A DNA stretch of 64,000 bases, taken from Terana coerulea. Its lineage: Eukaryota; Basidiomycota; Agaricomycetes; Polyporales; Phanerochaetaceae. The stretch is taken from contig JAKOGH010000733.1 of assembly GCA_024811115.1 (NCBI GenBank), forward strand, positions 356,642 to 420,641, in the 5' to 3' direction. The notes under the pieces were generated by a model. The model ran no database searches. It saw only the letters and a list, made by a program, of their open reading frames with translations, and was not told the DNA's origin. Position numbers and translations under genes: made by a program. Shown in pieces: positions 27,453 through 57,239 of the stretch; position 1 is the first letter of the stretch, and each line of letters begins with the position of its first letter.

Positions 27453-28457
27453 ATGAGTGGCTACGACAACGACAGCTATGGCTCTGATCGCCGCGACCGC
27501 GGTGACAATAACAGCTATGGCGGCAACCGCGACGGAGGGTCTGGCGGAAACGACAACAGTAGCGGTGGAGGGTATGCTGGAAGCAACAACAGCAGCGCTG
27601 GAGCTGGAGGGTATGGCGGAAGTGCCAAGAACAACAGTGAAGGGTATGGCGGAAGTGACAACAGCAGCAGTGGAGGGTACGGAGGTGGATCCGATAACTA
27701 CAGTGGCAGCAACAACAACAGCCGTACCGACGGAGGATATGGAGGCAACTCCAACTCGAACGACTACAGTTCGAGCAAGGGCAATGATTCCTATGGCTCT
27801 AACGACCTTTCGAACAACGATTCGCACAGACGCGACCAGTCCTCCGGTGACAGCTACGGCTCGTCGCGCAACAATAACTCGTACGGTTCGGGCAACGACT
27901 CTTTGAACAACAACACCAACACCAACTCGTACAGCCAGGGCAACTCCGACTCGTACGGCTCCCGCGCGAACAACAACGACTCGTACGAAAAGAAGACCCA
28001 GTCAGATGATACCTCTGAGTCGTACGGCCAGTCCAACCTCTCTTCTGGCGGGAATGACAACTCGTATGGATCCAGCACGGACAACGCGTATGGATCCGAT
28101 AACACCAACACCAACTCGTCTTCGAACAACAGTTCCAATGCGAGCAACAACCAAAGCGGGGGCACCGGAGGCTCCAACTACGGTGCTGGGTCGACTGGAG
28201 GTGGCGACTGGTTGGACAAGGGTATCTCGTATGCCGCCGAGAAGGCCGGTTACAACGTCGTCAGTATTATCATTTCTTCGCTTGCTTGGTGTCGCTGAAG
28301 AGGTTCATCATCAGGATAACTCCACCGCGCAGAAGATTGGCGACGCTGTTCAAGGCCAGTTCAAGAAGTTCACCGGTTAGTCGCCTCAGCATGCAAAATA
28401 TTCCTTCATAATCTGACTTGACACCCTTTAGGTCGTGATGTCCCTGGTAGCAACTAG
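27453..28457 (+). CDS. Gly/Ser/Asn/Tyr-rich protein with C-terminal DWLDKG module
   Basis: Three exons: 27453-28259, 28315-28375 (61 bp), 28432-28457 (26 bp); 297 aa. The first 245 residues are low-complexity with many SYGS, GGYGG, NNS and DSYG units, hydrophilic and without signal peptide or membrane segment. The C-terminus is a compact module: GGGDWLDKGISYAAEKAGYNV | DNSTAQKIGDAVQGQFKKF | GRDVPGSN. The genes at 54569-54976 and 55690-55994 share this module, the 61-bp and 26-bp exon lengths and both intron phases (0 and 1). Function unknown; composition suggests an intrinsically disordered cytosolic protein, perhaps stress-related, which is inference only. Confidence 0.88.
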
Positions 28458-29660
28458 GCGTGATGTCTGAATCTCCTCTTAGGTCACAACGAGGATGAAG
28501 TTGAGGGAAGTGTACGAATAGCGTTGGGCTTGATAACCAATATCGGATATATCAGAGCATGGGAATTGTAACTAATCACATCAAGCGAAACCGTCTGTCT
28601 TGCCGCTAATAATGAGTGCGACGCCTGCCTAACCTCTTCATGGTCCGTTGAAGAAGCGGCGACATGTGGGGGCAATTCGGGGAGGTTGCTTCATCTAGAC
28701 TCGCCAGCCCCTTCTATTTGAATCTATGCATCGCAATACCGACGGCTACCATCAAGGCGTGGTGGAGAGGCCCCAACAACCTCGGAGTAGGGTCTCGGAC
28801 CGTCAACGCTTATCTCTCCGTCGTAAATCATTCAATTTCACTGGTGAGCTCTGTGCTGCTACGTCTGAACTGGCGCTTCATCAGCCATTCAACCATTGCG
28901 AGCTGGTGAGCCGATGTAAATTTTACGCATATGCTAATTGCTGCTCGCTTTCTGATGTCCCGCCCTTTGCGCCTCTCAAAAGGCACAGTAATGTCGAGCA
29001 GGTGGAGAGAGGGCTCTGCAACATCTACGACGAATGGGTCCTACGCCCCAATTTCTCCGCTGTGGCCAACGCCTGCTCCCGGATCAGCCAGTAGTCAAAC
29101 GTCTAATTTTACTTGCAGAACATACAGGAGTGTCCATGATCCACACTCAGGCTAGCGTCAAGCACAGTATCGCTTACTTTACTGCTGCTTGCTCATTGCA
29201 TCTATATAATCCATAAACCAGGTTCATCATTTTCTGAAACCCTACTGCACTTGCATCCAGGCAATATCAATGTGATATCGTCAGGCCTTGTGTTCGAGCT
29301 TTCAGGTTGAAGGAGCCATGATGAGATCACTGGCAAGTTCACACGCCACAAAGTCATTGGCCCAGGCGCGAGGCCGGCGTGCTTTTGCACTGCGTAGACA
29401 GCTCTGCCACAGCTTCTGCTGAAGAGAGATGGATTTTAACCCCCAGTTGGCCGTGCTCGCGACCTCCTGCTTCTTGAAGCGGGGAGGTCGGATGCGGGCG
29501 CCTAGCTTACAGCCAAAATGGCAGTTGGCCGAATTGGCTCGTTGACTGCCCGATTTGGAGCCTGAACGCAATCGAAGCACACTCAATTCAAACTCAGCCT
29601 CTCGCAAACATATAAGAAGGGCGACCGCGACCCGACCTCTCTCTATCCCCAACGCCCATC
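28458..29660. other. no supported gene
   Basis: Near 28980-29095 two plus-strand frames both look somewhat protein-like (for example ERGLCNIYDEWVLRPNF), so a decayed or unresolved exon is possible. No start, splice chain or domain can be assembled. The last 100 bp before 29661 contain a TATA-like CATATAAGAAGG at 29608-29619, fitting a promoter for the next gene. Confidence 0.4.
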
Positions 29661-30427
29661 ATGTTGTTCAGCCTCCCGGTGACCCTCTTGCTCTACATCA
29701 TGGCGCCGTATCTCGGTTACCTCTCGGGCCCGGTCTTGGACTTTGCTGGTATCGACACCTACGACATCCTTGAACTCGTTGGCATCTTGTCTGTCGTCTT
29801 TGCAACTCCCGTCGTCTATTATGGGCTTTATCCAGAGCAGAAGAAACTCGATCTCTTAGTAAAACCCCATCTCCGCGAAGATATGATAGATCTCTACTAC
29901 ATTGTCTACGAGATCTGCACAGGGAAACACATTCGCCGCACCATCCAGTACGCCGTTTTTGAGCCATACCTCGAGATCGCCGGCTCCGATTTCGTCGCCC
30001 TTCCTCCAGTAAATACTACGTTCTGGATTGATATAGACTCCGCGTATGACCATGACGAACCCGCGACTTGGACCGCGCCAAAGTCTGACGACGACGACGA
30101 CGAGATCTCCTATCGCTTCGACTTCGCTGCTGTACACGAGGCCGATGAGGCCGACGAGCCTGTGGCGGACTTCGACGACGACGATTTTGTCAACCGGTTC
30201 GGTATCGTCATTTTGCTCCTGGTTGCTGCGATGTTTATCGTTGTAAGTCTCAGCCATTGTCCATCCGTGATTCAACGGACTGATGGTGTGCACAGCTGCC
30301 TGAGCTCTGGTGCCGCGCCCACGAATGGTGGATCAAAGCGATCGCGGAGAACATAGATGACTTCGGCAAGGGTGACATCGACATCGACTTGTCAGGTGAT
30401 CGCCCCAAGGAACTTCTGGAGATTTGA
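29661..30427 (+). CDS. membrane protein with acidic central region, 237 aa, unknown function
   Basis: Two exons: 29661-30242 and 30296-30427, intron GTAAGT..CACAG (53 bp), 714 nt in all. Residues 1-50 form hydrophobic segments (LFSLPVTLLLYIMAP, ILSVVFATPVVYYG). A middle region follows with KPHLREDMIDLYYIVYE, then a strongly acidic part (SDDDDDE, ADFDDDDFVNR), and a third hydrophobic segment at about 181-196 (GIVILLLVAAMFIV). The C-terminal 43 residues (LPELWCRAHEWWIKAI) are partly aromatic. Family not recognised; looks like a lineage-specific membrane protein. A TATA-like motif lies about 45 bp upstream. Confidence 0.7.
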
Positions 30428-31485
30428 ACGCCCAGGTGAGGATCAGAAAGTCATTCGTCTTCATCTGTGTGCTCACCGCTTCGAAGGATCGAGCTACTAA
30501 GCCGCTGAGCCCGCCGGTCTTTGATGACATCGGGCCGCGCTTGGCTGCGCGACCACCGACACTCGTTGTACTCAGACTTCGGACGACCACGTCGACACCA
30601 AGACCAAGGTTTCTTGCGTCTTTGCTGACTCAATGGCCGCCAACTTGAGGCAATCTAGTGAGCATGACCATTTGAGTGTCCGCCTTGAATGCGCGGCACT
30701 ATGGTCCTAGCTCGTGATGATTGTCCGAAACGGCGTGTCAACGAGGAGGTGCGGGCGTAAAGGCACTTTGCGACCGGCACTGTTGACGCTGCAAATGGCC
30801 GTCGTCGTGCAGAAGAACGTCGGAGTCGAGGATGGCTTACCCGCGCGAGCCCGCCATTTGAACCCGCCAATTGAGACCTCCTGAGAAGGAAGGAAGTTGA
30901 TGATATCACATGGATTTTCTTTCTTTCTATAATTCTCCGTAATTCTGTAACTCTCCATAATTCTGTAATTCTTCATGATCGTATAATTCTCCATGACCCT
31001 GTAGTTCGCCATACTTTCATAATACGTCGTCATCCTCTAATTCATCATATAATTGTGGAACATCCGTACATTTGAAGTGTGCTCAGATAGTCGTATGAAC
31101 AGCGAAGTTCGTGAGGTCCTCATGCGTCTTGATCTCGTCGGCAGAGTGACCCGGAATACCGAGAATCGGTTGTCTCTATCAAGGCTTGTGTTGTACGGTT
31201 TGCCGAGGGATATCCCTTCAGTCGCGATGAGATCATCGTCGGCCTGGTTCAACTCTAGCACTGCCGGGGGAGTGACTTACGAGCTCGACGTACTGCTGTG
31301 AAGGCAACGCAATCGTATGGGAACGCGCTGTCTCCGTGCCAGAGCAATGCAACCAGCCAAAATCACCCTTACATCCTCGCAATGTTGCCATGAAAACATT
31401 TCAATCAACCGAGGGCTGCAGCGCGTAACACAATGTACATACTCTCCGTTGTTGACCATTAACTGCCATCGATTCGTCCGAGCAA
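30428..31485. other. intergenic, includes a degenerate short tandem repeat
   Basis: Apart from the AATTCT-type repeat at 30925-31060 nothing is supported. The right end is the 3' flank of PUF6. Confidence 0.5.
30925..31060. repeat. degenerate tandem repeat around ATAATTCTCCAT
   Basis: Units such as TAATTCTCCGTAATTCTG, TAATTCTGTAATTCTTC, ATAATTCTCCATGACC follow one another with an approximate 18-bp rhythm. If read on the minus strand this gives a run of hexapeptides like ENYRIM, but no start, stop or splice context supports a gene. Confidence 0.6.
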
Positions 31486-33900
31486 TCACTTCGATAGCGA
31501 AGCGATCTGTACCAGTAACATCGACCTGCCCCTACGCTCTTTGTCCTCCTCGAGTTCCTTCACAACCTTCTTGTCAAACCATGCGCGAAGCTCCGCTTTC
31601 AGCTCCTCGCTCTCCTGCGCCCGTTCGCACAGTACCGCTACGATAAACGCGCCATCGTCCTTCGCCATCGAGATCGTGTTATCCTTACCCACGATCTCGA
31701 CGTACTGCTTAGCGAACGCCAGTGGGTCCCATAACGGCGAACGCACAATCTCCTTCGTGGTGTGATTGAACGAGCCGCCCTGCAGCAGAGCTTTGTAGAG
31801 ACGTGAGACATGGGCGAGGGTGATGAGGTGGGGGCTGGCGGCGTCCGATGATGGATAGGGAGATGCAAGGGCTTGGAGAAGGGTTGTTGACGCCGCGGAC
31901 TTGTCTATAAATGAGCGCTATTAGTCAACGGAGGATACACGATGTTGTGAAACATGTACGTACCTCCCTCGGAATACAGCATCACTTCGCCAACGACGAG
32001 ACTTCCACCTGGATCCCGAGCAACCTCGACACCCTTGTCGGCGACCCAGGCAAGTAGGCCTTCACTGGCGGCTTTCCGAATCTCCTGTGTACGCAGGTGC
32101 TCGTCTTTTTGCTCGTTTGCGCTCGTAGCGAGTCAGTCTCAGCGAGCAATGCAATCTACACACAACCGTTATACTGCATGCTTTTACACAAGAGCAAAAG
32201 GGGAGACATACCTGTGCAGGTGTGAAATGCCGCCGTGTCCGTGGCGACACCAGGTAGATCAGCGAACGACGACCTTGAGGGGTTTGGTACAGTGTTGGAG
32301 CCGCAGCTACCACGTCCGAGACGAGAGACTTGGCAGTAAGCTTGGTATCACTGCGAGAGATGCTATGTTAGAAGTGGAAGTAGGAGCAGTTCTGCGGTGG
32401 ACGAACTCAATGACATCTAGCGCCGTGAACAGCACTAATTGTGCCTCATCATCCTTGCACATACGTTCTACATGAGGCTTCACTATCTTCACGATATGTT
32501 TCCGATCCTGTGAAAGCTTAGGTTGACATATCCACGGACTAGTCAGAAGCTGGCGTACCTTCGCGGTACCCTGGGCGATAAACTCGCGAACGACCCGGCT
32601 GCCGTCCTTGGTGTGGACCATCTCAGCCAGGACATCTTGACAACTGGGAGTAGATTAGCATATATGCGGGTGGAATATACCAAAGGGATATTCACGTTTC
32701 GAAGATGTCCCTTCGGAGCTTCTCTCGCTCTGCTTCGTCTTCAATCTTGTTGATCGCGACCAGATATTCCCATAATACACGGTGGACGATAGCATGTGAG
32801 ACTGCGCCCTTGTCAGAGTTGTTGAATCTGTGGGAAGGCTTATGAAAACTACCCGGTTAACAGCGAAATGCCAGCTTACATGGTGGACAGATTCTCCTTC
32901 ACAGCATTCATGATGCGCTTCCTCCTCTCTTTATCAGAATCTTCCAAAATGCCTTGCAGGCCCTTCTTGGACCGTTCCTTCTCTTCTTCACTTCCTAACG
33001 TCACAGTGAACAGACTCGCTTCCTTGCCGTAGAAGTCCTTGAGAAGGATAGAGCGCTCGTAGGCATTTCCGTATAGCTCGAAGGCATCAGCGAGGACGCT
33101 AGAAGCTTCACGATGGAGCAGGAGGCGCATAACAGATCCCTGGAATTCTTGGAGGATTGAGGTACGGTGGGCGGGGCAAAGGCGGATGAGCTTGGTGACA
33201 AGAAACTGCACAGCAATGAATTAGCCGTCATGCACCCATACTGCAGGACGGCTTACCTTCGAGTATTTGTTTTGAGCCAACTCTTTATATTTTCCCTTGA
33301 GCTCCTCCGCGATCTCGTTTCTCTCTTTCTGGCCTCCGTACTTCACAGCCGTCTGCACAATCCTGCTGGCATCATGCTTGAACACGATATCCTTCACTTT
33401 GCCCCGCAAAACCGTCATCAGCGCATTGACGTGTTTTGTCCTATCCGCCTTCGAGAGGTTCTTTTGCCGTGCCGAAGACCACGCGCGTTTTGCCTCGATA
33501 AGCAACTCGGAGTGAGGTTTGGCAGCACGACGCTGCTCATGCAGCACTTTTTGGGCTTTGTGCGACTCGCGTGCAGCTACGTGAGGTTGTCAGACTCTCG
33601 AGCGGACTCCGACATGAAATCCAGGTGCGTACCATTAGCGTCCTTGGCAGGCTGCGATGGCCCCTCCTCCGCTACGTCCACGTCCATCTCCACATCCTCA
33701 TCCTCTTCGGCCTCACCTCCTTCATCTGAGCTGGTGTCGCTCTCGTTTTTCAGAGGGAGTGTCACAGGCTGTGCCCGCTTCTTGCCCTTGTCCGAGCTTT
33801 TTGGCGCAGGGTCGTCCAAGCGAGCCTTCTTGGGATGTTTTGTGTCTGACAGCGTGGTGCTGCTTGGTTTTGATTTGCGCTTTCCAGCCACTGCAGCCAT
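31486..33900 (-). CDS. PUF6: Pumilio-domain protein Puf6/PUM3
   Basis: Nucleolar RNA-binding protein for 60S ribosome biogenesis; in yeast also represses ASH1 mRNA. Nine exons: 33900-33633, 33576-33257, 33205-32882, 32829-32696, 32643-32559, 32507-32407, 32350-32212, 32137-31964, 31904-31486. N-terminus is Lys-rich with an acidic EDEDVEMDVDVAEE tract (nuclear type). PUF repeats include KHDASRIVQTAVKYGG, FQGSVMRLLLHREASSVLAD and MVHTKDGSRVVREFIAQG; then YQTPQGRRSLIYLVSPRTRR, a family hallmark, and a CPL-type end (SEGLLAWVADKGVEVARDPG, SPLWDPLAFAKQYVEIVG). In exon 8 T5 at 32106-32110 is one base short (A6 needed for SKKDEHLRTQEIRK); with that the total is 1965 nt, 654 aa. Exon 6 donor GTTCGT is atypical. 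Confidence 0.95.
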
Positions 33901-35019
33901 AGTAGATGTGATGGAAGAGAATATCGGGGTGAAGCGGTCGGGTTCACGTTGTCATTCGCAGGCTTCAAGGGGTGAGATCTGCAAAGCCGATCCCAAAATT
34001 GCGAGGCGCGCATCTTTGATCGAGTCGGGAGACCAAGCGCCGGAGGATACGACGCTTTCTTAAACCCCGTCACCGTCGACCAAGCTCCCAAGCTCCGTCT
34101 ATCCATCCTGCAACTTATAACTATCCAGCCTGTCCGTTACATGCAGGCAATCCAAATGAGACCTTTAAGTGCCGAGTAGCTAAGAACAACAATCTGAATA
34201 CACCTCAAAGCATGCGACATTCAAGAGAACCTGCTTGTGCTTGCAGCATGTAGTCTTCATGCTTGAACCTACGAAAGAGCATCATTGCAGGCTCTTTTTA
34301 GCGCATGCGATGCTCAGTAAAACTTTATGCAGCACTCGAAACTAGATCCAGAAGACAGGTTGCGCCCACCACCACTGTATGTGCTGTTTTCGAGCTATCT
34401 TCCTTGACCTACTCACCGATCAGCGGTATAGGCTGTTCCATGGCTGTTGCAGTGATCACTGTCTTGGAACGCTACGACGCCTTGAGTTTGAAGTTCTGCG
34501 TTGGGATTTTTCGCGTTTTCTGTGGTCACGAAATGACTTACCATCCAACTGTGTTTCACAGTCGCGGGAAGTTGAATCGTTCACCCTGAGGTTAGCTCAT
34601 GGAAATTTTCCTCCGCTATCTCTTTAACGATATCATATTTTATCCTAGACGTTCACAAGGATGATTTTCATAGCCCCCGATAGGTGATCGCTTCCGAAGT
34701 TCAAGCATGTGAGCCGTATGAAGTATTTATCGGCAATGCAGCGTCCGTTATTGCGTTGGCCAAGCTCGCTCTCTACTGCACCACTGATGTTTATGTTAGA
34801 TCGTTCTTACGCAACCATACACGCGTATAAGCGATAGTTCCTGGACAGCCACTGAAAGACACCAGAGCAAGCCGACGCCACGTGCTAAGACGCGTCGCGT
34901 CGCGTCTTCGGCTATTCCCGAGAGGCCATTTATTCCTCTGCTTTGTGGGCCACACACTCAACAATCTCTTTCTCCTCCCACTACAACCCCCTTCCCCCGT
35001 CCCTGCGCAGCTCTCCAAC
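33901..35019. other. no gene seen
   Basis: Upstream flank of PUF6 on the left and of the zinc-finger gene on the right, with CT-rich leader (CTCTTTCTCCTCCC) just before 35020. No supported feature between. Confidence 0.5.
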
Positions 35020-36143
35020 ATGTCTCTGACGACCTCATACACCCAAACGAGCTTCTCCATAGCCGACCGGCATTCCTTTACCCAGCAAGACCCTTCCACA
35101 TCGCATCGGCAGAACACCACACTGCGGTCCCCACCACCTGTTGTGCTACTGCCAACGCCATTACCCGGAAGATGGTCGCCCAGCTACCTCGGAATTTGCA
35201 AGGAGATCGAGAGGTTGTCGAGAGGACGAAGACGCGAGGCGGTGACTGCGCAGGCGACACCTCGACGCCGCACCGACTTCTTCGAGGCACCACCGGAGTC
35301 GGACTTGCCTACGCCGATGTTTGCGACGGAACGCGACATTGGCAGTGGTGGCATCCTGGGCTCCGAGAACGTCGCTAGCGAAGACCTTAGCTGTCTGCTG
35401 CCACCGACGTTCTACAACACGGCGGTCGGGCCTCGAACGGCTCCGTTCGTGACCGCTGGGCCGCGGTGGCCGCCCGAGCCACTACAACCTGGCGAGATTA
35501 TAAACTTGTCAGAAAGCTCGAGGGAGATCGCACATGCTCTGCAAGACGTACGGGCAACGAAGAAGGCGGAGACGGGGCGACAAGGTGTTCGAGGGAGGTG
35601 AGCAGCTTCTTATATACTTTCATGCCTCGCGCAGAATTTTCATTTGTCTTTGATTATAGAAAGAGATTGTCTGGAACGCATGCGCAGTGCGCCACTCCGG
35701 CGACGCAACAAAGCATGAATGGCGCATGTTGTGTGGCCGAAGCACAAAGGCCTGCTTTGACCTTTTGTCGAGCACCAGGAGGTCCAGTCTTCTCGTTGCC
35801 CAACAAGACAACAAAGTCATCTTTGGGGCGTGCGACGCTGGCTTCCATGCGTAATACTTGGACCAGGCCACCTGTTTTCACAATCCCGCCCAAGACCGTG
35901 GCGTCGTCTCATGTCCCCCAACCACCGGCGAAGGAGTCCCCACCTTACCGACGTCTGATCGACGTTAAAGAATCACTACCCAATCTATTCTCGAAGAAGT
36001 GCACTGTGACACAGACTGATGCCACGTCTGTCCGTCTGCGGTTGACGCCGGAGGAGTTGGCGGGGAACCACGAATGCCTCGTCTGCCACCGACAGGTTAT
36101 GGGTGCGCGGGCGTACCTGGACCATATGTGCACTCATGTGTAG
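35020..36143 (+). CDS. hypothetical protein with C-terminal C2H2-like zinc knuckle, 353 aa
   Basis: Two exons: 35020-35597 and 35660-36143 (intron GTGAGC..TATAG, 62 bp); 1062 nt. Start MSLTTSYTQTSF. The protein is Pro/Ser/Thr-rich and mostly disordered, with a basic patch (LSRGRRREAV) and segments such as LLPPTFYNTAVGPRTAPF. The last 25 residues NHECLVCHRQVMGARAYLDH..CTHV give C-x2-C-x12-H-x3-H, a single C2H2-like finger at the very end. This would suit a nuclear or protein-binding role, but a single finger is not enough to call DNA binding. No family recognised. Confidence 0.7.
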
Positions 36144-36420
36144 TCTGTTTGCATTCTGGGGGTTGATAGATTTTAGGCTCAGTAATGATGTAAGGATTCT
36201 GTGCGTTCCCCAGTGCGACTCCAGTACTATAGACTGCTTCATTGTCACGTTATAATCTGATATTCTGCTATATTCCATGATAACATCTCGCGCCGGTGTC
36301 GAGCAGCTAAGAGTACTGACGTGATAAAGGTTATGTGGAACGCATTGCTGATCTGGTTGCAGGACTTTAGTGCAAGGGCTGGCATAGTAGTCATAACCTG
36401 TCTTCCAGTTATTTGCACGC

Positions 36421-36975
36421 TCAGTCTTCTCTGCGCACTGTACCACAAGACGTGCATCTGGGAGAAGACATCAGCCTTCCTAAAGCGTCGCAAGGCAATA
36501 GTTAACACACACTTGTAAACTAGAAGAAGTCCGCTAGTAAGCCTAGTGTCAGGCGTAGCTCAGAATGTGGCGTACTCACAAGTCGACATAGGCTCGTCGG
36601 CAGACCTGATCTGGATCTGCCTGAAGTACGCCTCACTATTCCCACATCTCTCGCACGTCGCTGCTTATCCTCCGTTAGCATATAGTCGATAGGAAGTTTG
36701 TGAGGAGGAAAAAATGCACCCGCCGTTTTGGGCTGTCCGGCGAACTCATCGGCAGCAGATCTCACGTCGTCCTTCTGCTTCCTGCTTATCTTGGTTCTGG
36801 AAGTGATCTGTTCAGAACACATCAGCCATTGGCTAGGACAGTGATATCAGATCAGAACGACAAACCTGCTTCGTAATTGGAAACTGGTATGGACAGGTTT
36901 GGCAGACCCACTGGTTGGCACCAGACTGCTCAGAAATGACCAGTGTGTTCGCACAAGACGGACAGAACAGCAGGT
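36421..36975 (-). CDS. RPC11: DNA-directed RNA polymerase III subunit Rpc11/Rpc10 (first exon not located)
   Basis: Small Pol III subunit for termination, reinitiation and RNA 3' cleavage. Exons 36975-36866, 36807-36720, 36660-36580, 36519-36507 (13 bp) and 36457-36421. N-terminal zinc ribbon LLFCPSCANTLVI..WVCQTCPYQF (C-x2-C, C-x2-C); linker KISRKQKDDVRS; C-terminal TFIIS-like ribbon CERCGNSEAYFRQIQIRSADEP with the conserved RSADEP hairpin, then FYKCVCTSCGTVRRED at the end. The exons sum to 329 nt, so an upstream exon ending in phase 1 must add at least the Met; total near 110 aa matches the family. I found no certain ATG for it. The micro-exon and the 49-bp last intron (GTTAAC..CAG) are needed to recover the second ribbon. 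Confidence 0.9.
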
Positions 36976-37534
36976 CTGCATGAAGAGTGGAGGTAAGCGC
37001 ACTATGGTGAAGCAAAACAATTTGTAAAGTCTGAGGCGTACAAGAGAAGGATCGCGGCCGAGCGGGATGACTCTGAGGTGCGGGTGGTGGTCCGTGTCAG
37101 ATCTCAGAAGTCCAAACGGCGAGGCAAAAGGATAGGGCAAATCTCTTTGAGCTTACAGCCAACGCAAATACTGTCAAGTGGATAACTCTTCACTCAAGTC
37201 GGAGATTCGCTCAGCAAATCCCGTCGAAATGTAACCCCTGCCACCATTCGGATCGACATCCCAGCAGTGACAACGTTTGGATCCTTGAGGAACTTGGCCA
37301 AGTTGACTCGGCCACACGCAAAGTGAATCGTGAAAGAAGCCCTAGGACATGAGTAGGAGCCTCCGAATCTACGGAATAGAAACAAGACGATGAGCAGAGA
37401 GCAAGGGGGATCATGGCACTGCGTTGCGGAGCTGGCGCTGGCGGAGAACACCATGAACCGGGGCCTCGGACCCCGCTAGACGCCACAACGCTTTCTTTCG
37501 TTGATCACCACCATGCCGACCTTCCAGTCTATCG
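36976..37534. other. divergent upstream region of RPC11 and ferroportin
   Basis: About 560 bp between the mapped 5' part of RPC11 (minus) and the ferroportin start (plus). It must contain the tiny first exon of RPC11 and both promoters. No other feature seen. Confidence 0.5.
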
Positions 37535-39206: not shown

Positions 39207-39300
39207 GCTTAGGAGAAATCTTCTAGGATATTATGTGCAAGCAATTGGGAGGGTATATGTAGTTATACTGATGTACATCGAATGTTCAATACGAAATAAG

Positions 39301-40152: not shown

Positions 40153-40325
40153 CGGCGTTAATTATTTCTACACTTTCCTTCCGTACACTGAGCAGGGCTG
40201 CAGGGGCAAAGAGGGCTCAGCTTGACTACTCACCCTACATAAAAGAAGTGAGTATTGGGCTGATGACATGCATTAACGCTGTAACTCATCTTGGTCAGGT
40301 CTTTCCACTCGTTGGTGGTACTATT
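40153..40325. promoter_or_regulatory. shared divergent promoter of IES6 and UTP7
   Basis: Only 173 bp separate the two start codons on opposite strands, so both promoters must lie here or overlap the first exons. Co-regulation of a chromatin remodeller and a ribosome biogenesis factor is an inference from the spacing. No TATA box seen. Confidence 0.6.
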
Positions 40326-44172: not shown

Positions 44173-44256
44173 CCACAGACATTATCCCTGGTCGTGTCTA
44201 TATCATATGATATCCTCTCGACACTTGAATATCTTTGTTCATTGACTGCGCTAGTA

Positions 44257-45771: not shown

Positions 45772-47419
45772 TCTCGCAAGCCTGTCGAGCGTAGCAGTCA
45801 ACAAACATACCGTAACCAACAGATGGTGGACGTACTGACTGGCGTCGTGGTTGTACAAATGCAATACCGAAACAGCGTGGCAAGCTCCTGCGAAAACGCA
45901 ACAGGATTGAATGTTACTGATGACGTCAGCACTGGGGTAACGGGGAAAACCCAGTTGCGATACCTGCCCTGGTACAAATTCAACGATAGCGCAGAATTTC
46001 GAGACTGCTTCGAGGAAGCAGAACATGTCCTACTGAGAAAATCACATTAACAACTTGAACCTTCGTCAACATTCACGTAGTAAGCACTAGAGAATATTAA
46101 GGGAGATCACGCCGTTGTCAGTTGAACTTACCGTTGAAGTTATGCGAGCAGACCTACTCAAGCGGAGTACCGCACAGTGCGTTGCCGGTGCCCATCCATG
46201 AGCGGTAGAAACTAATCTGAGTCCAGCGATCCGCTCCAGCTACGCTGCACTCTGAGAACTGCGCTGCAAACATGCCTTGCTGTGCATGTTTGCACTATTT
46301 ACGACCTCAAGCGAACCTCAGGGCTTGAAAACGCAGACTCAACGAGTCATCGTGTTACACCTGAGGCTGTTACAGTGTTGAGGTTCAAACATTCATGGCT
46401 ATGGCTTGCGCCTGCAGGACCGAAATGACCACCCAGGCCCGACTTGCGATCCTACACTGGGACCCACAATGCGGAATTAAAGTGGAACCCGTATGCGCCC
46501 GGATCCGTCCATATGGCGCTGATATTTTGCGCCTCCGGCGAGTTCGTCAAGAATCAAGATCATGCACAGCTGTGTTCCAGTGTGTTCCGTATGTACATAC
46601 TGCACAAGAAGGCTTAGTTGTTCGGCGGGATTATGACAGCGGCTAACCAGGGACTCTCACCTGCAAATCTTTGAAGGCCTTCCGCTTGTGGTAATTGCAT
46701 CAAGAGACAAGCTCTTCTTCCGTTGTCCGCCACAATGCGCGGGCTGTTTCGGACGAAGAGCAAACTCGCCTGCACGTAACATCTCGGAGGTTCGAAAGTA
46801 ACTAGGCTAGGAGGTGGTGGACGGATATAGACATGAAATTGATTGATCCGCGACGCTCCCTAATCCTGGCCGCTCCGACCTCCGGCTGCGGCTTGCGACC
46901 GCCGCAATTCCGGCCTTGTTACGGCAGCATCGGCGGCACTGTTCATGACGCTTAACACGGCCTAAATCGGCCGTCGCGCCTTTTATCCTAATGTGGTCCA
47001 CCGACGCCAGCGATTTTACATCCTGGTACGACGTTGAGAGCCGTAACAACATCCATGGGCTCGTCTGTGGTCGAGTTGTGGCGAGGCAGATCTCGGAGGG
47101 TCTACGCTGGACATCCCAAGATGGACATAAATGATGGGATGGGGTTATTGGATATTACGTAATACGTTGCCGAGAAGTTAGCCGACGACAAAAGCGGGCT
47201 GCTCGTTCATAAAAGCTGGCGAAGTCTTGTCCTCACCTTCATCTTTCTCTCCACCCTCCGTCGTCGTCTCCGGTCCCCTCACTCTCCTTTCTTTTACCAC
47301 ACATCCTGGACCTTGGTTCCATCGTAATTCTGTCTTTCTCGTTCTAATCCTCGTAACTTTCGACCTACAACTCGATAATTCACCAGCCTAGAAACGAGAA
47401 CACACGATTGAACCACGCG
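45772..47419. other. no supported gene
   Basis: Left part is upstream of the LanC-like gene; an upstream frame (46026-45964, MFCFLEAVSKFCAIVEF) could be a leader exon but is not needed. Right end is CT-rich leader of the oxidase gene (TTTCTCTCCACCCTCC), with a TATA-like CATAAAAGC at 47210. Middle has nothing. Confidence 0.5.
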
Positions 47420-49880
47420 ATGCTCTCTTTGCTCGCTCTCGGCTTAGGAGCCTCGACAGTCCTTGCACAGGGCTCGAAAGGCGGTGAAGGCCACGTTGGT
47501 GGTAGCTTTGAAGACGGAGGAAACACCCAAGTCAGCGCCATGATGGTATGTCGCGCGTCTGGTCGCATCGTCATGTCCTTGAGGACAGTAAGGCTCACAA
47601 ATCCCTAGATGTTCCTCGGTAACGAGGACACAGTCTATATTCTCGACAAGTCTGAAGGCAACGCCGCTCAGATCAACGGTCATCCTGCTATGGGCTCTGT
47701 TTACGATATCGCGTCACGACAAGCCACCGTGGTCGAGGTCCACTCAAATCCTTTCTGCGCGTCCGGCATGCACATGCCCAATGGCTCCTACATTGCCTTC
47801 GGTGGTAACGGTGCCATCGGCCCCGGCGGAAACGTCGGCGACACCAACAATGGCGCTTTCGACACCTCCTACAACGATCTCGCCGGTCAGACCGGTGTGC
47901 GTGTTTTGAACCCCACCGGCTGCGAGGGCAGCGACGCCGCCACCACGGATTCGTGTAAATGGTACGACGACGCAAGCACCGTCCACCTAAAGGCCATGCG
48001 GTGGTACTCGACCGCCGAATCTCTCGGCGATGGATCCGTCGCTGTCATCGGCGGCTTCTCCAACGGTGGCTACATCAACCGCAACTACCCTAACGGGAAC
48101 GACCCCATTTACCAAGGGGGCGCCTCTCAACCGACTTACGAGTTCTGGCCCCCACGGATGCCACTCCCCCTCTCATGCAGTTCTTGGTCGATGCAGGCGG
48201 CTTGAACTCGTATCCCCACACTTTCCTCATGGCGTCCGGCAAGATGGTGCTCCAAGCGAACGTCTCCACCAGTATGTGTCGCACGGAATCATGTATCCTA
48301 TGATGCTAATCGCTTGCTTTAGTGCTTTGGGATCCTGCCACCGGTAATGAAACTCCGCTGCCCCCCATGCCCGATAACCTCGTCCGTGTCTACCCTGCCT
48401 CGGGTGCCGTCGCCATGTTGCCGCTAACTCCCGCCAACAACTACTCGCAAACCGTTCTTTTCTGCGGTGGCAGCGACATGCCTGACAACGCCTGGGGCAA
48501 CTACTCGTGGCCGTTCATCAACACTTGGGACTATCCCGGCGTCGAACAAGTGCCACCGCTTGGAGCCTGAGCCTCAGGACGGTTCTGCTCCTGCCTACGT
48601 TGAGGACGACGCCATGCTTGAGACCCGTACCATGGGCCAGTTCATTCTCCTGCCCGACGGTACGATGCTTGTCATCAACGGCGGTCTGAACGGCACAGCT
48701 GGCTACTCAACCCAGACCCTTGAGACGCTCTCCTACAGCGACATGCCCTACGGCATGTCCCTCGCATCCGGCCCCGTCGGCCAGCCTGCCATCTACAACC
48801 CCAAGAAGCCCGCTGGTCAGCGGTGGTCGCACGACGGTCTCGCCACGTCTGACATCGCTCGTCTCTACCACTCCTCCGCGATTCTCTCCTCCCCAGTGGC
48901 GCCGTCCTGGTTGCCGGCTCCAACCCCAACGTCGATGTCAACCTGACCACCGTCTTCCCCACCCAGTACAAGGCGGAGGTCTTCTACCCCCGTACTTCAG
49001 CGCGCCCCAGCGCCCCGTGCCCTCTGGCGTGCCCAAGACCATCTCGTACGGTGGCGACGCGTTCGATATCACTGTCCCCGCCTCGTCATACTCGGGCTCT
49101 GCTAACGACGCCGCGGACAACACCACCGTCGTCCTCATGCGTCCTGGCTTCACGACCCACGCGATGAACATGGGCCAGCGTGCGATGCAGCTCAACAACA
49201 CCTACACAGTCAACAAGGACGGCTCGTTCACCCTGCACGTCGCGCAGGCGCCCCCGAACGCCAACCTGTTACAGCCCGGCCCTGCGCTGCTGTTCGTCGT
49301 CGTCGACGGCATCCCGAGCAACGGCACCTACGTCACTGTCGGTAGCGGCAACATCGGCACGCAGCCCACCGCCGCCGCCGCGTCGCTGCCCGCCAGTGTC
49401 CGCCTCGACAGCGTGACTGGCACGGGCTCGGGCGCGTCTTCCAACAGCAGCAGCAGCGGCAGCGGGTCGAGCAGCAACCAGAACAACGGTGCGAGCTCGC
49501 ACACGGGCGCGATTGTGGGAGGCATCATCGCGGCAATCGCGTTGGTCGGCATACTCGGTGCGGTTTTCGGTATTTGTATCACGAGGCGGAGACGCGCCGC
49601 CGCACAGCTGACCGCGGGGGCGGCGTACCCGATGGGTGCGTCGTCTGGTGCGGGAGGCGTCGGCGGGGCCATGGCCCGTGGTGGAGCACGCCATTCTGAC
49701 TCGAGCGCTTTCGTCCCTCTCCAACAGGATAATCACAGCGCGGCCTGGAACGCCAGCTCCGTCTCGCTCAACACACCCTACTCGCCGTACCGGGACGACG
49801 CGCGGAACACGTCAGCGGAATTCGATCCGTACCACCAGAACGCACCACCGATGGCTCCGGCGGGCGCCGGACGATACTGA
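47420..49880 (+). CDS. copper radical oxidase (glyoxal/galactose oxidase family) with C-terminal membrane anchor
   Basis: Secreted copper enzyme that oxidises aldehydes or alcohols to make H2O2, feeding peroxidases in wood decay. Exons 47420-47545, 47609-48271, 48323-49880. Signal peptide MLSLLALGLGASTVLA; SNPFCASG with the Cys that crosslinks to the radical Tyr; RWYSTAESLGDGSVAVIGG; ETRTMGQFILLPDGTMLVIN; copper ligands Tyr-His in RLYHSSAIL and His in GFTTHAMNMGQR; a Ser-rich linker; a helix (GAIVGGIIAAIALVGILGAV) and RRRR, so it may be anchored with a cytosolic tail. Four one-base shifts: C5 48149-48153 (short), 48535-48540 (one extra), C4 48891-48894 (short), C5 48987-48991 (short). With these counted the total is 2349 nt, 782 aa. 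Sequence errors are likelier than decay, but four in one gene deserves a check. Confidence 0.92.
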
Positions 49881-50394
49881 GGCGATGTGTTTTTGTGTAC
49901 ACGGATGGACTTGTCTCTACTTCTCCCTCTTCATTTCATCATTGTCGCTTATCATCATCATCGACTCATTCAATCACATTTGCTTTCTTATCCCATTTCC
50001 TTCCCGTCTCGTCATCGGCGGTTGGGCTGGCGGGCGTCGTGTACCCTACAAGGCTGCTTACTATCGGACAGTACATTACAACGAAGCAATCTCGCACAGA
50101 ATCTCACTCTTTGCATCCACCTCATTGCATTGTTCGTTGTGTCCGCTAGACACCGGTCTCGCCGCTTTGTGATGACTTGACGACGGTCCCTTGCATGGAT
50201 TCTTGCACGACTCCTTTTGCACTGGCTATGCTTTCCTGTTGCAGTGTGCGGACCGTTCCGTTTTCTCCACTTAGTACTGTTCCTGTTCATGCTTTACGAA
50301 CCCCTTACGACAGTCTATTCTTTCTTCTCTTAGTACGATAGTCTGTTCTTTACTTCTTGCATTGCCACGAATCAAATCTACACCAGTGTAGCTA
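49881..50394. other. convergent 3' ends of the oxidase and GH71 genes
   Basis: Pyrimidine-rich 3' flank of the oxidase gene on the left and 3' flank of GH71 on the right. No gene. Confidence 0.55.
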
Positions 50395-52521
50395 TCAAGG
50401 AGAGACTGCCACAAATGCGTTGAAGTTGTATGAGGGGGGCTTCGTCTGGAAGGTAAACCCCGCTGGTGCGAACGTCGACGCGTTGGTGCCCCTCGCGATC
50501 GAGCTCGTGACATTGCAGTCGTTCATCAATGGCAGCTTGAGTTTCGTAAGACCTGCCGGCGCCGCCGAGACCATTGTCGAGCTCCCGCACGTCAGCGTGA
50601 CGTTCGCCGGTGCGGTGAGCAGGACGACGGCCCACAAGTAGTCCTCAGTCTATGCGAAAGAGAAAAAAAATCAAGATCGGAATTAGCATTCGCGAGATAA
50701 ATATGCATGCGCATGCGCATGCGAGGGCACGGAGGACATACCCATTGCCAATTCGTCGGTTTGCCCACCGGGTCTGCGGAGCTGGCCGCAGCAGGGTACA
50801 GGCGGGCCCACAGAAAGGTACGGTCCCTGGCTATCGAGGGGTACACCCCCGTTTTGAAGGCGGTGATGTAATAGCTCATCAAGTCGAGCCACCCTAGAAA
50901 GATATTTTTATCAGCTCGCTGTCAAGTAGACTGTTGATGCAGATCAAGGGCAAATGTAGTATTGGCGCAACGCCAAACGCAGTGGTGCTTGTTGCAATGT
51001 GTCGCTCACGAAAGAGCTCCCGAGGCGTACCTTGGTGGTCAAAGCCGTTCACCCACGCCTGGGACATGGGCTGCTGGCCCTCGATCGGCCCGATGTAGTG
51101 GCTCTCGCCGTAGTCGTTCCAGGTGTTGACCTCCACGAACGGGACGGCGCTCCTATTCTGAATCAGCGACTCCCAGCGCTGGGAGAAGAGCCAGTCGTCT
51201 CCACGGTAGATAAAGTTCTTGTTGTAGGTGTCAGCGCCGTAGTGCTAGTGAAGCAGAAATACGATAAGTTGGAGTGAGCGGGCAGATCATAGCGAAGGTG
51301 GACGTACGGTGAAGAACCAAGGAGAGACCGCTGCCATGTATGACTTATTTCCGAGGTTCGAGATGTACGATTGGTCCGGGCCAAACGTGATGTTGTAGTC
51401 ACCCATGGGCCAGCCAGAGTTCCACTATACGATGTACGTCGTCAGCCGCATGTCAGAAAACAGTTTTCGCTACGTACGCCAAAGGCTCCGTCCAAGACAG
51501 AATAGCTTGGGAATGTCGCGGGGTCGATGAAGAACGACGGCACGAAATACGCCGGCGTCGTGAGCCCCGTCTTCACCGTGCTCGTCCACCCCTGGTCCAC
51601 TGAGCTTGCGCCGAACGTGCACGACTCCCCAGCAAACGTCGATACGAAGACTTTGCCGTTGTACAGGAGTTGGTTCGGATGCGATGCGTACTCCGTGATG
51701 TAGGTCCTTACGAGCTGGGCATCGCCAGTGGCTGCGCATGGGAGAGAAGTCATGTCCAAGGAGAGGAAGAGCTTGAAGGACGTCGAGAGAGCCTTCGCGG
51801 CGGCATAGGCGTTGGAAATCTGGCCAGGCTCCCAGCTGTCACTGCCGACGTTGAGGGCAAACGCATCAATTCCCTTCGATGAGGCCAGCTGGATGTCTGT
51901 TGACAACATTGGGTCAGTATGGAACATTTTCGCAGAAATGGGTGGCTGACCGCTCGCCCAGGACGCTTGAGTGTAGTTGTACGTGTTTCCAACGATGTGG
52001 TGCGCAAAGACCAGCTTTGCGGGCTTACTAGGCTGGGGAGCAGAGGTGCTGGTGCCAAGGATCGGCGTCGTAGAGCTCGAACTTGTAATGCCTGTTGAGG
52101 CTTTCGTGGTGGAGCTGCTGGTTCGCGCACTCGAGCTCGTGATACCTGTCGAGGTCTTCATGGCAGAGGTGCTCGTTCGCACACTCGAGCTCGTGGTACT
52201 TGTCGAGGTCTTCATAGTAGAGCTGCTGGTTCGCGCACTCGAAGTAGAGGCAATCTCCGAGACGGTAGTAGTACTGCGGTTCGGAGGCCAGACCGCCGTA
52301 GTTGACGTGGATGTGGTCCGCGCCGCCGAGGTAGTCGACGTGCGACTTGACGTTGTACTTGTCCTCGAGAAAGGATTCACCGTGAGCGGCTGCATATATC
52401 CTCCTTGCGCGTCCAGAAGCACCAGTGCTTGCGCATCGAAATTGCCTTCTCGCTGGATCATAGCCGCCTGGGCTGCAAGCACGCTCGAGAGGAGAACACA
52501 GAAAGCAACGTCAAGCTGCAT
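50395..52521 (-). CDS. secreted alpha-1,3-glucanase, GH71 (mutanase)
   Basis: Hydrolyses alpha-1,3-glucan, acting on its own wall during remodelling or on other fungi. Exons 52521-51951, 51896-51478, 51424-51308, 51244-51031, 50893-50742, 50649-50395; 1728 nt, 575 aa. Signal peptide MQLDVAFCVLLSSVLAAQA; then a Ser/Thr-rich linker with three 18-residue repeats; GH71 domain from KLVFAHHIVGNTYNYTQ with SKGIDAFALNVG, YFVPSFFIDP, WNSGWPMGDYN, SPWFFTHYGADTYNKNF, VEVNTWNDYGESHYIGPIEG, WLDLMSYYITAFKTG; a C-terminal beta-rich part (LLTAPANVTLTCGSSTMV..FVAVSP). The 54-bp intron 51950-51897 keeps the frame if unspliced. The linker-first order differs from enzymes with a C-terminal carbohydrate-binding module. 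Confidence 0.95.
52076..52237 (-). repeat. three 54-bp tandem repeats in the GH71 linker
   Basis: Three copies of an 18-residue Ser/Thr unit (ARTSSSTMKTSTSTTSSS, VRTSTSAMKTSTGITSSS, ARTSSSTTKASTGITSSS). Likely heavily O-mannosylated spacer; the copy number may vary between strains. Confidence 0.85.
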
Positions 52522-53647
52522 GGCTCAGGTCAACTGAAGCTAGAAGATGGGGAAGTTGTTGGTCAAGAGAGGGAGTTTGGAGTTAGAAGCTCAGCCCCGA
52601 GGTGGATATGACATGCCAGCGAGACTGGCACGTATAGGGTCAGCCGAGTTGCTGACACTGCTGACCGCTGGAGTCGTCAACCGCTGCAGCTGGTACGGGA
52701 TGATCCCATATTCACACTGGCAGCTTCCGCAGTGTAAACATTACCAAGCCTCTGGGTTTAAAGCCTGGTTAGTGCTGTCTCGGGATGGAGAAAACCAAAA
52801 GACATACCTGACAAGCTCACGACTCGCCCCCAACCGAATATTAGACCACCACCTCAAGGCTGCAGAAGTCTGGTTTGTTTCTCCGTTGAATTGTGGCATT
52901 ACGAGCATGTCAAGAGTTCAAATCAAGTGCGAGTAGATGTGTATATAGTTCTAGTGACTCGATTTGCTGAGCGACGGTTAAGTTACAAGCTGAGGCACTG
53001 GCGCTTTCGGTATGCGGGATTACGGCTGTTGATGGCGCATCAATAACACCGACGATCGTCTTCTGCCACTGAGCGCTAATTGCAGACACGTATTCCGACT
53101 TCCTTCTTTCCAGCTATTACTGTCTTCTTGACTGTCTTTCGTGCGGTCCCGCAAAGCACGTAGCGCACTGAGTTTCACGGCCAGTGGGATTACCCACCAT
53201 CAATATTTGCTGTTGTGACTCGGCGTGCTGCTGGGTCGGTTTGGACTCAGTAAGATCGCAATATCCACTAACTCGGAGTTACTAGTAAGTGTCAAGGACC
53301 AGTACACAAAGTTATGAACGCGATTTCTTGTTTAACGCGATAGCCTTCTAGACGAAATGGCTGACCTTCAGCCCTACCGCCTGCGAAGTCGTCGGAACGC
53401 CTTCTCGTCTGGTTCCCGGCGAGGCTGACTCAAGCGGACACTCCCGTCAGCCGTCAGCCGCTACAAATACTATGTAGAGTATGACGACTGGCCAGAAAGG
53501 ATCGCAATTTGTGCTGGCACACTTCCCTACCCTCAGTAAGTTTTGGCCGTTCGTCGCATTGCTTCGGGTTGAGCTCACTCACAGCCTAACAGCATCGCCA
53601 CTTTCTACGAAGACCTTATTATCTTCCGTGTCATACGCAGTGACAAC
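52522..53647. other. no gene seen
   Basis: Upstream region of GH71 on the left and of the small Ser-rich gene on the right. No supported feature. Confidence 0.5.
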
Positions 53648-54181
53648 ATGCCCTATGGTAGACGGCGGTCGTCTGTCTGGAGCGTAGGCTCCAGCTCCTC
53701 CGGCTCATCTGGATCCTCGTCCTCGTCCGCACCATCCTCACTCGTCCAGCCCTCTCCTCTCTCCGACCCTGCCTTCTCCTGCCCCGACATCGTGGAGGAT
53801 GACGAGAACGAGCCTGAGTCGCGGCCCGTCATCGAAATTGGCGACGAGCAAATCGAGGAGTCGCCTTTCGACCCGAGCATCCCGGACGAGATCTATTGGC
53901 AGATGATGCAGCAGGCTGCGTCGTCCGTGCCGACGGCGTCCAAGGGCTCTGCCTTCCACGAACGTCTCTCGCGCCTGATATCCGGGAACAAGGGCAGCAT
54001 GGGGCACGGTGCGACGGCCAACGCAGGAAGCTCGTGGCGGTCGAAGCTGAAGCTTCGAAGAGACGACGTCCAGGAAGAATCGAGCGAGTCGAACGGCGGT
54101 GCTCGCAAGACAGAGCGGCGGGTGCGGATTCAGGAACCCGGAGTCGTTATTTCCTGCAGCAGGGGACCTAGGGGAGCCTGA
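53648..54181 (+). CDS. Ser-rich hypothetical protein, 177 aa, single exon
   Basis: ATG at 53648 in ACAACATGCC context. N-terminus MPYGRRRSSVWSVG, then a Ser/Gly run (SSSSGSSGSSSSS), an acidic region (DIVEDDENEPESRPVIEIGD), a possibly folded helix IPDEIYWQMMQQAASS, and a basic C-terminal part (SKLKLRRDD). No signal peptide or membrane segment. Codon use and the single intact frame suggest a real gene; family unknown. It could be longer at the 3' side by splicing. Confidence 0.55.
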   Translation: MPYGRRRSSVWSVGSSSSGSSGSSSSSAPSSLVQPSPLSDPAFSCPDIVEDDENEPESRPVIEIGDEQIEESPFDPSIPDEIYWQMMQQAASSVPTASKGSAFHERLSRLISGNKGSMGHGATANAGSSWRSKLKLRRDDVQEESSESNGGARKTERRVRIQEPGVVISCSRGPRGA

Positions 54182-54568
54182 CGCTGATTCCGCTGGACCA
54201 GGCACAAGCCAGAAACGACATCGTGCGCTTCCCAGAAGGGTTCGAGATAGCCGAGGCAAAGAGTGGGAATAGGGCGTGATGTCCTACGAGACACTGTCAT
54301 CATCCTGCACAACAGCCTCCCTTGTAAGGACTGAAGGCTTGTCAGACTTACCTTACTATCCATGAAAAATGTTCACTCATTCCTCATATGAGTGCGATGG
54401 CCTCGATATACGTGACAAAAAGGCACGTAGAGATGAAAAATCCGTACTTGTGCTTGACATCACACGCTCGGCCTGGGTAATAGTGAGGAGGATTACAAGG
54501 TTCGTTTGCGTCTAAAAATTAACTCTAAGATTACACGTTGTGATTGTCCAGTACGATGCATAGCGAAT
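54182..54568. other. intergenic
   Basis: 3' flanks of two convergent genes. Nothing else seen. Confidence 0.5.
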
Positions 54569-54976
54569 TTAATTTACACCGGGAAGTCCGAAGCCTGACG
54601 TAGGCGAGAGTCAGGTATATGCATATCGAGACAGTGGATGGGCTACATACCCTCCTTCGAGCGGAGCTCCTTGTTGATGAAGTCACCAGCTTTGTCCGCG
54701 TTCGCGTTGCTCTACACATGTCCATTAGAGCCAGGCGAGAGATGATTGCTGTAGAGCACTCACGACGTTGACTCCGAACTTGTTTCCGGCCATTTCTATG
54801 CCCTTGTCGAGCCAGTCCTGCTTCTCGCCGGACTGCTGGGTGGTCTGCTGGGTGGTCTGCTCGGTGCTCTGCTGCTGGTTGCCCTCGTAGCCGCCAGCGA
54901 CGCCGGAGCCGTGTACGCCATCTCCTCCTCCTATAGCCGTCTGGGTATTGGAGAGTTGTTCAGTGGCTTCGGACAT
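54569..54976 (-). CDS. small DWLDKG-module protein (tandem copy 1)
   Basis: Exons 54976-54764 (213 bp), 54711-54651 (61 bp), 54594-54569 (26 bp); 300 nt, 99 aa. MSEATEQLSNTQTAIGG, then a Gln/Thr-rich stretch with repeated TEQTTQQTTQQ, then the module: KQDWLDKGIEMAGNKFGVNV | SNANADKAGDFINKELRSKE | GFGLPGVN. Hydrophilic, no signal peptide. Same 61/26-bp exons and phases as copy 2 and as the gene at 27453. Its promoter shares exact 14-mers with copy 2. Function unknown. Confidence 0.88.
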
Positions 54977-55689
54977 GATGGATTCGTGAGGTCGTCGGGG
55001 TGGTTGTGAGGAATGTCGTGCGCCCTTGAGGTCTTATATACCTCGCTGGTGATTGCATCATAGACATAGCTCATGGTCATGGCAGGAACGGATGACGTAG
55101 CTCAGGGTGCGGAAGATCGGACGCCACAACGCTTCCCACGCCACATTTCTGATTCGGGCGCCGGCCGTATATCGCTTTCCCCACGCCAAGGGCGTATATT
55201 CCACATGCCAAAGCTGCGGATGACAAGAAACCCATTGGGAAAAGAGATAGAGACGTATGGTTATCAAAGCTGGTACCGGAAGATCCGTAGCGTGCCGGAC
55301 GGCTGCGGGCGCGGGGGTTAAGGTCTTGGTCGCTGTGCTGGCAGTGTACCATAAAAACTTGATAAAAACGGTGGCGCAGTATGCCAGCAAGCATTGCATA
55401 ACGGACGTCTACGGTGACTATACTTGCCTATATACCGCTTGCAATAATATTGTACACCGCGTTGTTAACCGGATCAACACCGACCCACTCGACGGCGTTC
55501 CCAAGCGTCATACAGACTCTTACAGTTAACCAACACACGTATCTTAGGTCCAAAGAAATATCGTAGCGAAATCACACGTCTGACGACCGTTTTGGAAGCA
55601 CAGATGAAGTTGATGACACGAAGTTACTTTCCGGTTTGGGCGTTCTAATGATACATTATATATTTGTACAGTACAAATCCGTTATGCGT
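54977..55689. other. promoter of copy 1 and 3' flank of copy 2
   Basis: Apart from the promoter elements near 55033-55098 no feature is seen. Confidence 0.5.
55033..55098 (-). promoter_or_regulatory. TATA box and TGACGT-type site upstream of copy 1
   Basis: CTTATATACCTCGC at 55033-55046 gives TATATAAG on the coding strand about 60 bp before the ATG; GGAACGGATGACGT at 55085-55098 contains TGACGT, a bZIP/ATF core. Both 14-mers recur exactly upstream of copy 2, which supports function or recent duplication. Confidence 0.6.
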
Positions 55690-55994
55690 TTAGTGAACAC
55701 CGGGGAGGTTGAAGCCTGGAGGTAACAAATCAGAAGCGGGTAGGAATGACAAAGGATGTATCTACGTACCCTCCTTCTTGTCGAACTGCTTGTCAGCGAA
55801 GTCACCGATCTTGTCGGCGTTGGAGTCACTCTACAGGTGCGTGATGTTAAGCTAACCATCCTGGATGTATGTGTGAGGAGACTCACGATGTTAACACCAG
55901 CGTCCTTGCCAGCGGTCTCGATGCCCTTGTCGAGCCAATCCTGCTGCTCGCCGCCCTGCTGCTGGTTGCCCTGGTTGACTGCGTTGTCGGACAT
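55690..55994 (-). CDS. small DWLDKG-module protein (tandem copy 2)
   Basis: Exons 55994-55887 (108 bp), 55830-55770 (61 bp), 55715-55690 (26 bp); 195 nt, 64 aa. MSDNAVNQGNQQQGGEQ, then QDWLDKGIETAGKDAGVNI | SDSNADKIGDFADKQFDKKE | GFNLPGVH. The shortest family member in the window: only a brief Gln-rich leader precedes the module, so the module itself is probably the functional unit. Lies about 700 bp upstream of copy 1 on the same strand. Confidence 0.88.

Positions 55995-56518: not shown

Positions 56519-57239
<721 letters not shown>

Follow-up and report, generated by a model that had tools for sequence, protein, structure and literature searches.

What is the short element with which three genes of the polypore Terana coerulea end, and what might it do in proteins whose preceding parts differ? 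These genes, here called genes 1, 2 and 3, lie in a 64,000-nucleotide stretch of DNA (the window; positions 356642-420641 of contig C572, at the contig end, in a 48.4-Mb assembly), and each is predicted to encode a low-complexity leader, which is S-Y-G-rich, SGVAGG-type or Gln-rich, followed by one module of 46 residues. The module runs from D-W-L-D-K-G to the C-terminal end and is ungapped across the three genes. Judged by sequence comparison, the DWLDKG-module family is secure: it is real and well supported, and it has no name. Its exon structure, the purifying selection on the module, a promoter block common to genes 2 and 3 and an excess of small residues at i, i+4 in the module are likewise shown, whereas the function is inferred. 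The reading that we favour, at slightly less than an even chance, is that the members would be small, hydrophilic, Cys-free, largely disordered intracellular proteins of a stress type, with a conditional two-helix tail for sticking or targeting.

Gene 1 (27453-28457, plus strand) encodes 297 residues, the first 251 of which form an S-Y-G-rich leader resembling DDR48/Cprp proteins; its exons lie at 27453-28259, 28315-28375 and 28432-28457 (807, 61 and 26 bp), and its module (28206-28457) is split by introns at 28260-28314 and 28376-28431. Gene 2 (54569-54976, minus strand) encodes 99 residues, comprising a 53-residue SGVAGG-type leader and the module (54569-54817, with two introns inside), from exons at 54764-54976, 54651-54711 and 54569-54594 (213, 61 and 26 bp). 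Gene 3 (55690-55994, minus strand) encodes 64 residues, with a short Gln-rich leader of 18 residues before the module (55690-55940, also with two introns inside), and its exons are at 55887-55994, 55770-55830 and 55690-55715 (108, 61 and 26 bp). All six predicted introns have GT...AG borders and sizes of 52-56 nt. Intron 1 is in phase 0, directly after module residue 18, and intron 2, in phase 1, separates the first base of codon 39 of the module from the other two. A preliminary description of this DNA had reported three genes with a common end unit and had placed them correctly, except that the two smaller genes need to be assigned to the minus strand. Its observation that the last two exons measure 61 and 26 bp, with introns in phases 0 and 1, holds for all three genes under predicted splicing. 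It was also right that the leader varies in length, although the extremes of 245 and 16 residues are replaced by the lengths given above, and the tail pattern that it wrote as G-x(2)-PG is actually G-x(3)-P-G-x-[N/H].

To define the module independently, a profile was made from 30 full database modules (22 from named species) with the window sequences excluded, and E values were calculated for 15,000 sequences. Gene 2 scored E 1.3e-26, gene 3 1.9e-25 and gene 1 3e-13; since this database-only profile scores all three genes so strongly, chance is excluded as the source of the likeness of the three predicted modules. When the window was scanned in six frames, five frames rose above the inclusion threshold, all of them in genes 1-3: exon 1 of each gene, and exon 2 of all but gene 1. 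Exon 2 of gene 1 (E 5.9) and exon 3 of gene 3 (E 0.35) stayed below it. The predicted spliced modules match the 30 full-length database modules without a gap, which backs the exon calls. Eleven residues are invariant in the 33 modules from the database (30) and the window (three): W2, L3, D4, K5, G6, G15, A23, G27, D28, G39 and P43. Of the 46 module codons, 18 are the same in genes 2 and 3, 12 show silent differences and 16 specify another residue, corresponding to 0.26 non-synonymous (dN) versus 1.42 synonymous (dS) substitutions per site by the Nei-Gojobori method (NG86), with dN/dS ~0.18. The module is under purifying selection, and the earlier suggestion that it is the conserved part of these proteins agrees with this comparison.

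A protein search with gene 2 returned 65 database relatives (E 3.7e-24 to 1.6e-3). Twenty-seven of them carry a species name and are spread over 20 genera, four of which belong to the Polyporales by taxonomy lookup; the remaining 16 we take to be Polyporales as well. The known range of the family is so far the Polyporales, and the search, which depends on common 5-residue words, does not imply absence outside this order. As far as they are shown, the labels of the 27 named relatives read hypothetical, uncharacterized or unnamed protein. The preliminary description had expected a true family to recur in many basidiomycetes with the same intron positions and had named hits in this species only as the outcome that would speak against one; we found polypore relatives in 20 genera, with the same intron sites. 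In Cytidiella melzeri, Polyporus arcularius and Trametes coccinea, a long and a short family member are both present, and within each of these species the rows of the two agree in source assembly descriptor, which suggests that a linked pair of long and short genes is old.

The exons could be compared in a set of 66 database proteins, consisting of the 65 gene 2 relatives and one further protein, P0066. The full 46-residue module is present in 30 of them. Four others contain exon 2 and then diverge: P0014 and P0029 right after residue 39, P0037 at residue 38 or 39, and P0046 as a fragment that ends after module residue 39. The other 32 (among them P0052 from Trametes sanguinea) do not have the spliced exon 2, and all of them depart at residue 19 with V and then one of S, R, C or G, the pattern that a GT donor read in frame would produce. 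These 32 proteins thus look like intron read-throughs; if so, protein catalogues hold shortened versions of 32 family members. P0066, a gene-1-like protein, reads through the first intron at the same site and stops after residue 39. Together, the 32 departures at residue 19 and the ends after residue 39 give support for both intron sites that is independent of the window.

Across the whole genome, the DNA pattern encoding DWLDKG has seven occurrences, three in the window and four in contigs C638 and C639. Both contigs carry the gene 2/3 region, match the window at ~98% identity over 3.1-3.4 kb and probably represent haplotype contigs. The copies of genes 2 and 3 in C638 encode identical proteins, as does the C639 copy of gene 3; the last exon of the C639 copy of gene 2 is shorter by one base. 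For gene 1, the genome yielded no second copy. Protein searches of the genome gave no other credible module locus among the best candidates scored, a procedure that may miss diverged members. One candidate on contig C7 (E 0.15) was rejected as a family member, its frame being F-box-like by eye.

Are the leaders, then, interchangeable, as was first proposed? This was not borne out: the predicted leaders fall into conserved types that recur between species. Of the 65 gene 2 relatives, 55 have a SG[VI][AS]GG block and 52 the longer form G-G-G-x(4)-G-S-G-[VI]-[AS]-G-G, shares that are biased upwards by the SGVAGG block of the query itself; among the 30 proteins with a full module, 24 have the block. 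A search for the gene 1 type found one match, P0066, among 1360 candidates, which does not imply that the type is rare. A search with gene 1 residues 250-297 alone gave no candidate, yet P0066 has seven 5-residue words in common with this stretch, so that search lacked sensitivity and does not count as a negative. The linker SNYGAGS-x-GGG occurs in both gene 1 and P0066. Gene 3 has a leader of the short Gln-rich type. In a tree of the 33 modules (46 columns; five of 30 inner branches well supported), the gene 2 module groups with the short-type protein P0007 (39/46 identities, support 82/95) and that of gene 3 with the short-type P0024 (support 88/71). Gene 2 accordingly combines an SGVAGG leader with a short-type module, a mismatch that could be due to gene conversion with the adjacent gene 3 or to a single leader exchange. 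It is weak evidence in favour of interchangeable leaders.

The leader of gene 1 offers the closest link to a known system. Like Cprp of Clitopilus passeckerianus and yeast DDR48, as these are characterized in the relevant sections of PMC10512284, it is of low complexity, rich in S, N, G and D, and contains SYG and SYGS motifs (eight SYG, six of them within SYGS, besides one SYS and four GYG). Repeated S-Y-G in a low-complexity protein, the DDR48/Cprp criterion, is found in gene 1 only; genes 2 and 3 differ from Cprp/DDR48 in having no S-Y-G leader, and no SYG was seen in them by sight. The cprp gene has three introns, compared with two in gene 1. Low-complexity searches, which can miss some, turned up no further gene in this genome with a leader resembling that of gene 1, and gene 1 is the best candidate here for a DDR48-like gene. 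According to the same sections, DDR48-like proteins occur across the Dikarya, Trametes versicolor included, are linked to stress and starvation, react to many kinds of stress, and influence growth, secondary metabolism and the response to azoles. Conditions of pleuromutilin production raise the expression of Cprp, and when it is silenced, colonies are larger and pleuromutilin is reduced. A DDR48-annotated gene of Lentinula edodes rises under blue light, as reported in the part of PMC7100940 that treats it. Beyond a weak helicase-domain match, these sections of PMC10512284 ascribe no structured part to DDR48-like proteins; its main text does not mention a C-terminal module or WLDKG, and the module is likewise absent from the relevant passages of the other papers cited here.

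These parallels also permit the view that the leaders are the working part, binding RNA or condensates through S-Y-G and Q/N-rich stretches, with the module as a partnerless tail for solubility or against aggregation. S-Y-G motifs have been proposed to be RNA-binding and prion-like in DDR48/Cprp (PMC10512284), which a review treats as candidate RNA-binding proteins in its pertinent section (PMC8783092), and the module is hydrophilic, with a grand average of hydropathy (GRAVY) of -0.6 to -1.06 in 30 relatives. Nevertheless, it is the module and not the leader that is kept across the types, with W, P and several G among its 11 invariant positions, and the leader of gene 3 has only 18 residues. 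We consider this view unlikely.

The reading of disordered stress-type proteins with a conditional tail draws first on composition. Genes 1-3 have Gly contents of 14-20%, GRAVY values of -0.91 to -1.52 and no Cys; in the 30 relatives Gly ranges from 9.9 to 26.3%, and Cys is absent from all 30. Glycine therefore exceeds 6%, the threshold used for hydrophilins, in all three genes and in 30/30 relatives. High Gly, low GRAVY in most members and the lack of Cys are features in common with hydrophilins and proteins of the late embryogenesis abundant (LEA) type. The HSP9/HSP12 family is another small, hydrophilic, helix-prone group of fungal stress proteins; it differs from the module family in not being listed in the Pfam scans, and we assume that its conserved motif differs from that of the module. 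In these scans, genes 1-3 gave below-cut-off matches only (DUF5384, ALN and DUF7542), and the best E values for the 33 modules and the 30 proteins were 0.02 and 0.087, with no HSP9/HSP12 or LEA family listed in any of these sets. The weak Pfam matches, including MT0933_antitox, KTSC and others that each appeared in one to four members, were rejected because they are inconsistent between members. No Pfam family covering the module relatives was found, genes 1-3 had no match in NCBIfam, and no mention of DWLDKG, WLDKG or GSGVAGG was found in the literature covered, to which most subscription journals do not belong; a broad keyword search likewise brought up no relevant paper, judged by titles and abstracts.

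The second line of evidence is the spacing of residues within the 30 database modules. Small residues at positions i and i+4 form 5.43 pairs per module versus 2.91 in shuffled columns, and 8 of 2000 shuffles were as high. Such small-xxx-small spacing is typical of tight helix packing, and its enrichment is the basis on which we propose self-association. The strongest hydrophobic periodicity falls at 92 degrees per residue, a peak that 13 of 5000 shuffles matched. Structure was predicted with AlphaFold2 for two database relatives: the model of P0011 has one helix (17-60) and that of P0022 two (43-65 and 69-86), which suggests at most a helix-prone, conditionally folded tail. In the reading that we favour, the module would fold on demand into two helices divided near intron 1, which would pack through their small residues onto another copy or a cellular surface. 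This packing would gather or place the disordered leader, and the leader in turn would protect or form condensates, in line with proposals made for DDR48/Cprp.

Genes 2 and 3 have a promoter block in common. Within 400 bases of upstream sequence, both carry four words of 10-14 bases, identically ordered (ACGTCATCCGTTCC, ATGATGCAATC, GCGAGGTATATAAG, CATTCCTCAC); in a random control, none of 287 window pairs of 400 bases had a common word of at least 14 bases. ACGTCATCCGTTCC lies at 55085-55098 (minus strand) upstream of gene 2, where it contains ACGTCA, and at 56175-56188 (minus strand) upstream of gene 3, and the TATA-type word GCGAGGTATATAAG lies at 55033-55046 and 56084-56097 (both minus strand) in the respective promoters. 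ACGTCA is, as we take it, a CREB/ATF-type hexamer; this core occurs 40 times in the window on both strands and is unspecific. Genome-wide, ACGTCATCCGTTCC has six matches, which belong to genes 2 and 3 in the window and to the counterparts of these genes in C638 and C639, and thus marks the gene pair and no genome-wide regulon. The two genes resemble a tandem duplicate whose members have a TATA-type promoter in common. The members of the family are probably induced by stress or dormancy.

A number of results weigh against the reading that we favour. In composition, GRAVY is below -1 in genes 1 and 3 and not in gene 2 (-0.91), 19 of the 30 relatives pass the Gly and GRAVY thresholds together and 11 fail, and mean Hopp-Woods hydrophilicity, for which hydrophilins should exceed 1, is only 0.23-0.44 in genes 1-3 and above 1 in none of the 30 relatives. 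The family is thus unlike hydrophilins and LEA-type proteins in Hopp-Woods values, in the GRAVY of gene 2 and in the lack of a listed LEA family; the three hydrophilin criteria together are described as insufficient for a definition in the relevant part of PMC4190154. The eight SYG of gene 1 stand at the low end of the published fungal range of 6-45 (Table 1 of PMC10512284). Both structural models are poor, with a mean predicted local distance difference test score (pLDDT) of 59.9 and a predicted template modelling score (pTM) of 0.26 for P0011, and 54.5 and 0.19 for P0022. The periodicity maximum of 92 degrees differs from the 100 degrees of a regular helix, and by halves of the module it is borderline in the first (149 of 3000 shuffles as high) and not significant in the second (544 of 3000). 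The moment at 100 degrees over the first 40 residues is 0.056, with 496 of 500 shuffles equal or higher. At the promoters, no heat-shock element was found upstream of the three genes by a strict pattern, and words like the stress response element (STRE) occur at gene 3 only. The 800 bases upstream of gene 1 have no TATA box and a single half-site of the cAMP response element (CRE), at -544, so that co-regulation of all three genes is not indicated.

In a different proposal, the module is an amphipathic segment that binds membrane or septum and tethers the proteins to the cell periphery, in a manner that can be likened to that of the stress protein Hsp12. Taken by halves, the module has moments at 100 degrees of 0.38 and 0.39 versus 0.24 and 0.21 when shuffled (68 and 12 of 500 as high), and a fusion of Cprp with green fluorescent protein (GFP) gathers at septa and the cell edge, as described in the localization data of PMC10512284. 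The moment over the first 40 residues, however, is almost nil, and charged residues are many, the net charges of the three modules being 0, -1 and -4. Such an anchor seems to us quite unlikely.

Two further origins for the module were considered. Searched alone, gene 3 gave 13 hits to colicin and klebicin chains (E 0.017-0.56), which aligned to about residues 18-54, as if the module descended from the N-terminal portion of an HNH colicin DNase domain and retained a nuclease or inhibitor-binding function. The likeness (best E 0.017) vanished with the profile of 33 modules, since none of the 11 chains that it lists up to E 10 is a colicin; there is no space for an HNH part behind the module, and no prokaryotic relative was confirmed by two short peptide patterns with 84 pattern matches. 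The profile search has in effect disposed of this descent, which is extremely improbable. The small size and conserved C-terminus of the short proteins would also suit precursors of secreted or signalling peptides, yet they start with MSE, MSD or MSG followed by polar residues, a hydrophobic signal stretch was not seen by eye, and they have no Cys, all of which makes precursors very unlikely.

A more specific version of the self-association proposal would unite all three genes. The polypore DDR48-type protein may be bipartite, a disordered S-Y-G leader being tethered to a helical self-association module, and the two small paralogues may serve as satellites, copies of the module that tune stress-granule or septal condensates by joining or capping the same assemblies; we put this forward as a rather unlikely scenario. 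The most interesting point is whether the module tail belongs to basidiomycete DDR48/Cprp proteins in general. If the module ends the basidiomycete version of DDR48 and stands alone in small genes, a deletion of 46 residues would be enough to test what it does, and a named module would give a handle on small polypore genes for which no Pfam family was found.

Several other features were observed in the window. Upstream of gene 1 lies a Rad17-type checkpoint clamp-loader gene (24889-25756, minus strand), recognized by Pfam Rad17 in two overlapping frames above the cut-off. A CPL (NUC119) domain exon at 31486-31917 (minus strand) is barely above the cut-off, and a weak match to 3-hydroxyanthranilate dioxygenase at 56487-56993 (minus strand) is slightly below it. 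Finally, a frame of glycosyl hydrolase family 71 (51442-52524, minus strand; E 4.6e-39) carries a long Ser/Thr-rich stretch in its N-terminal half.

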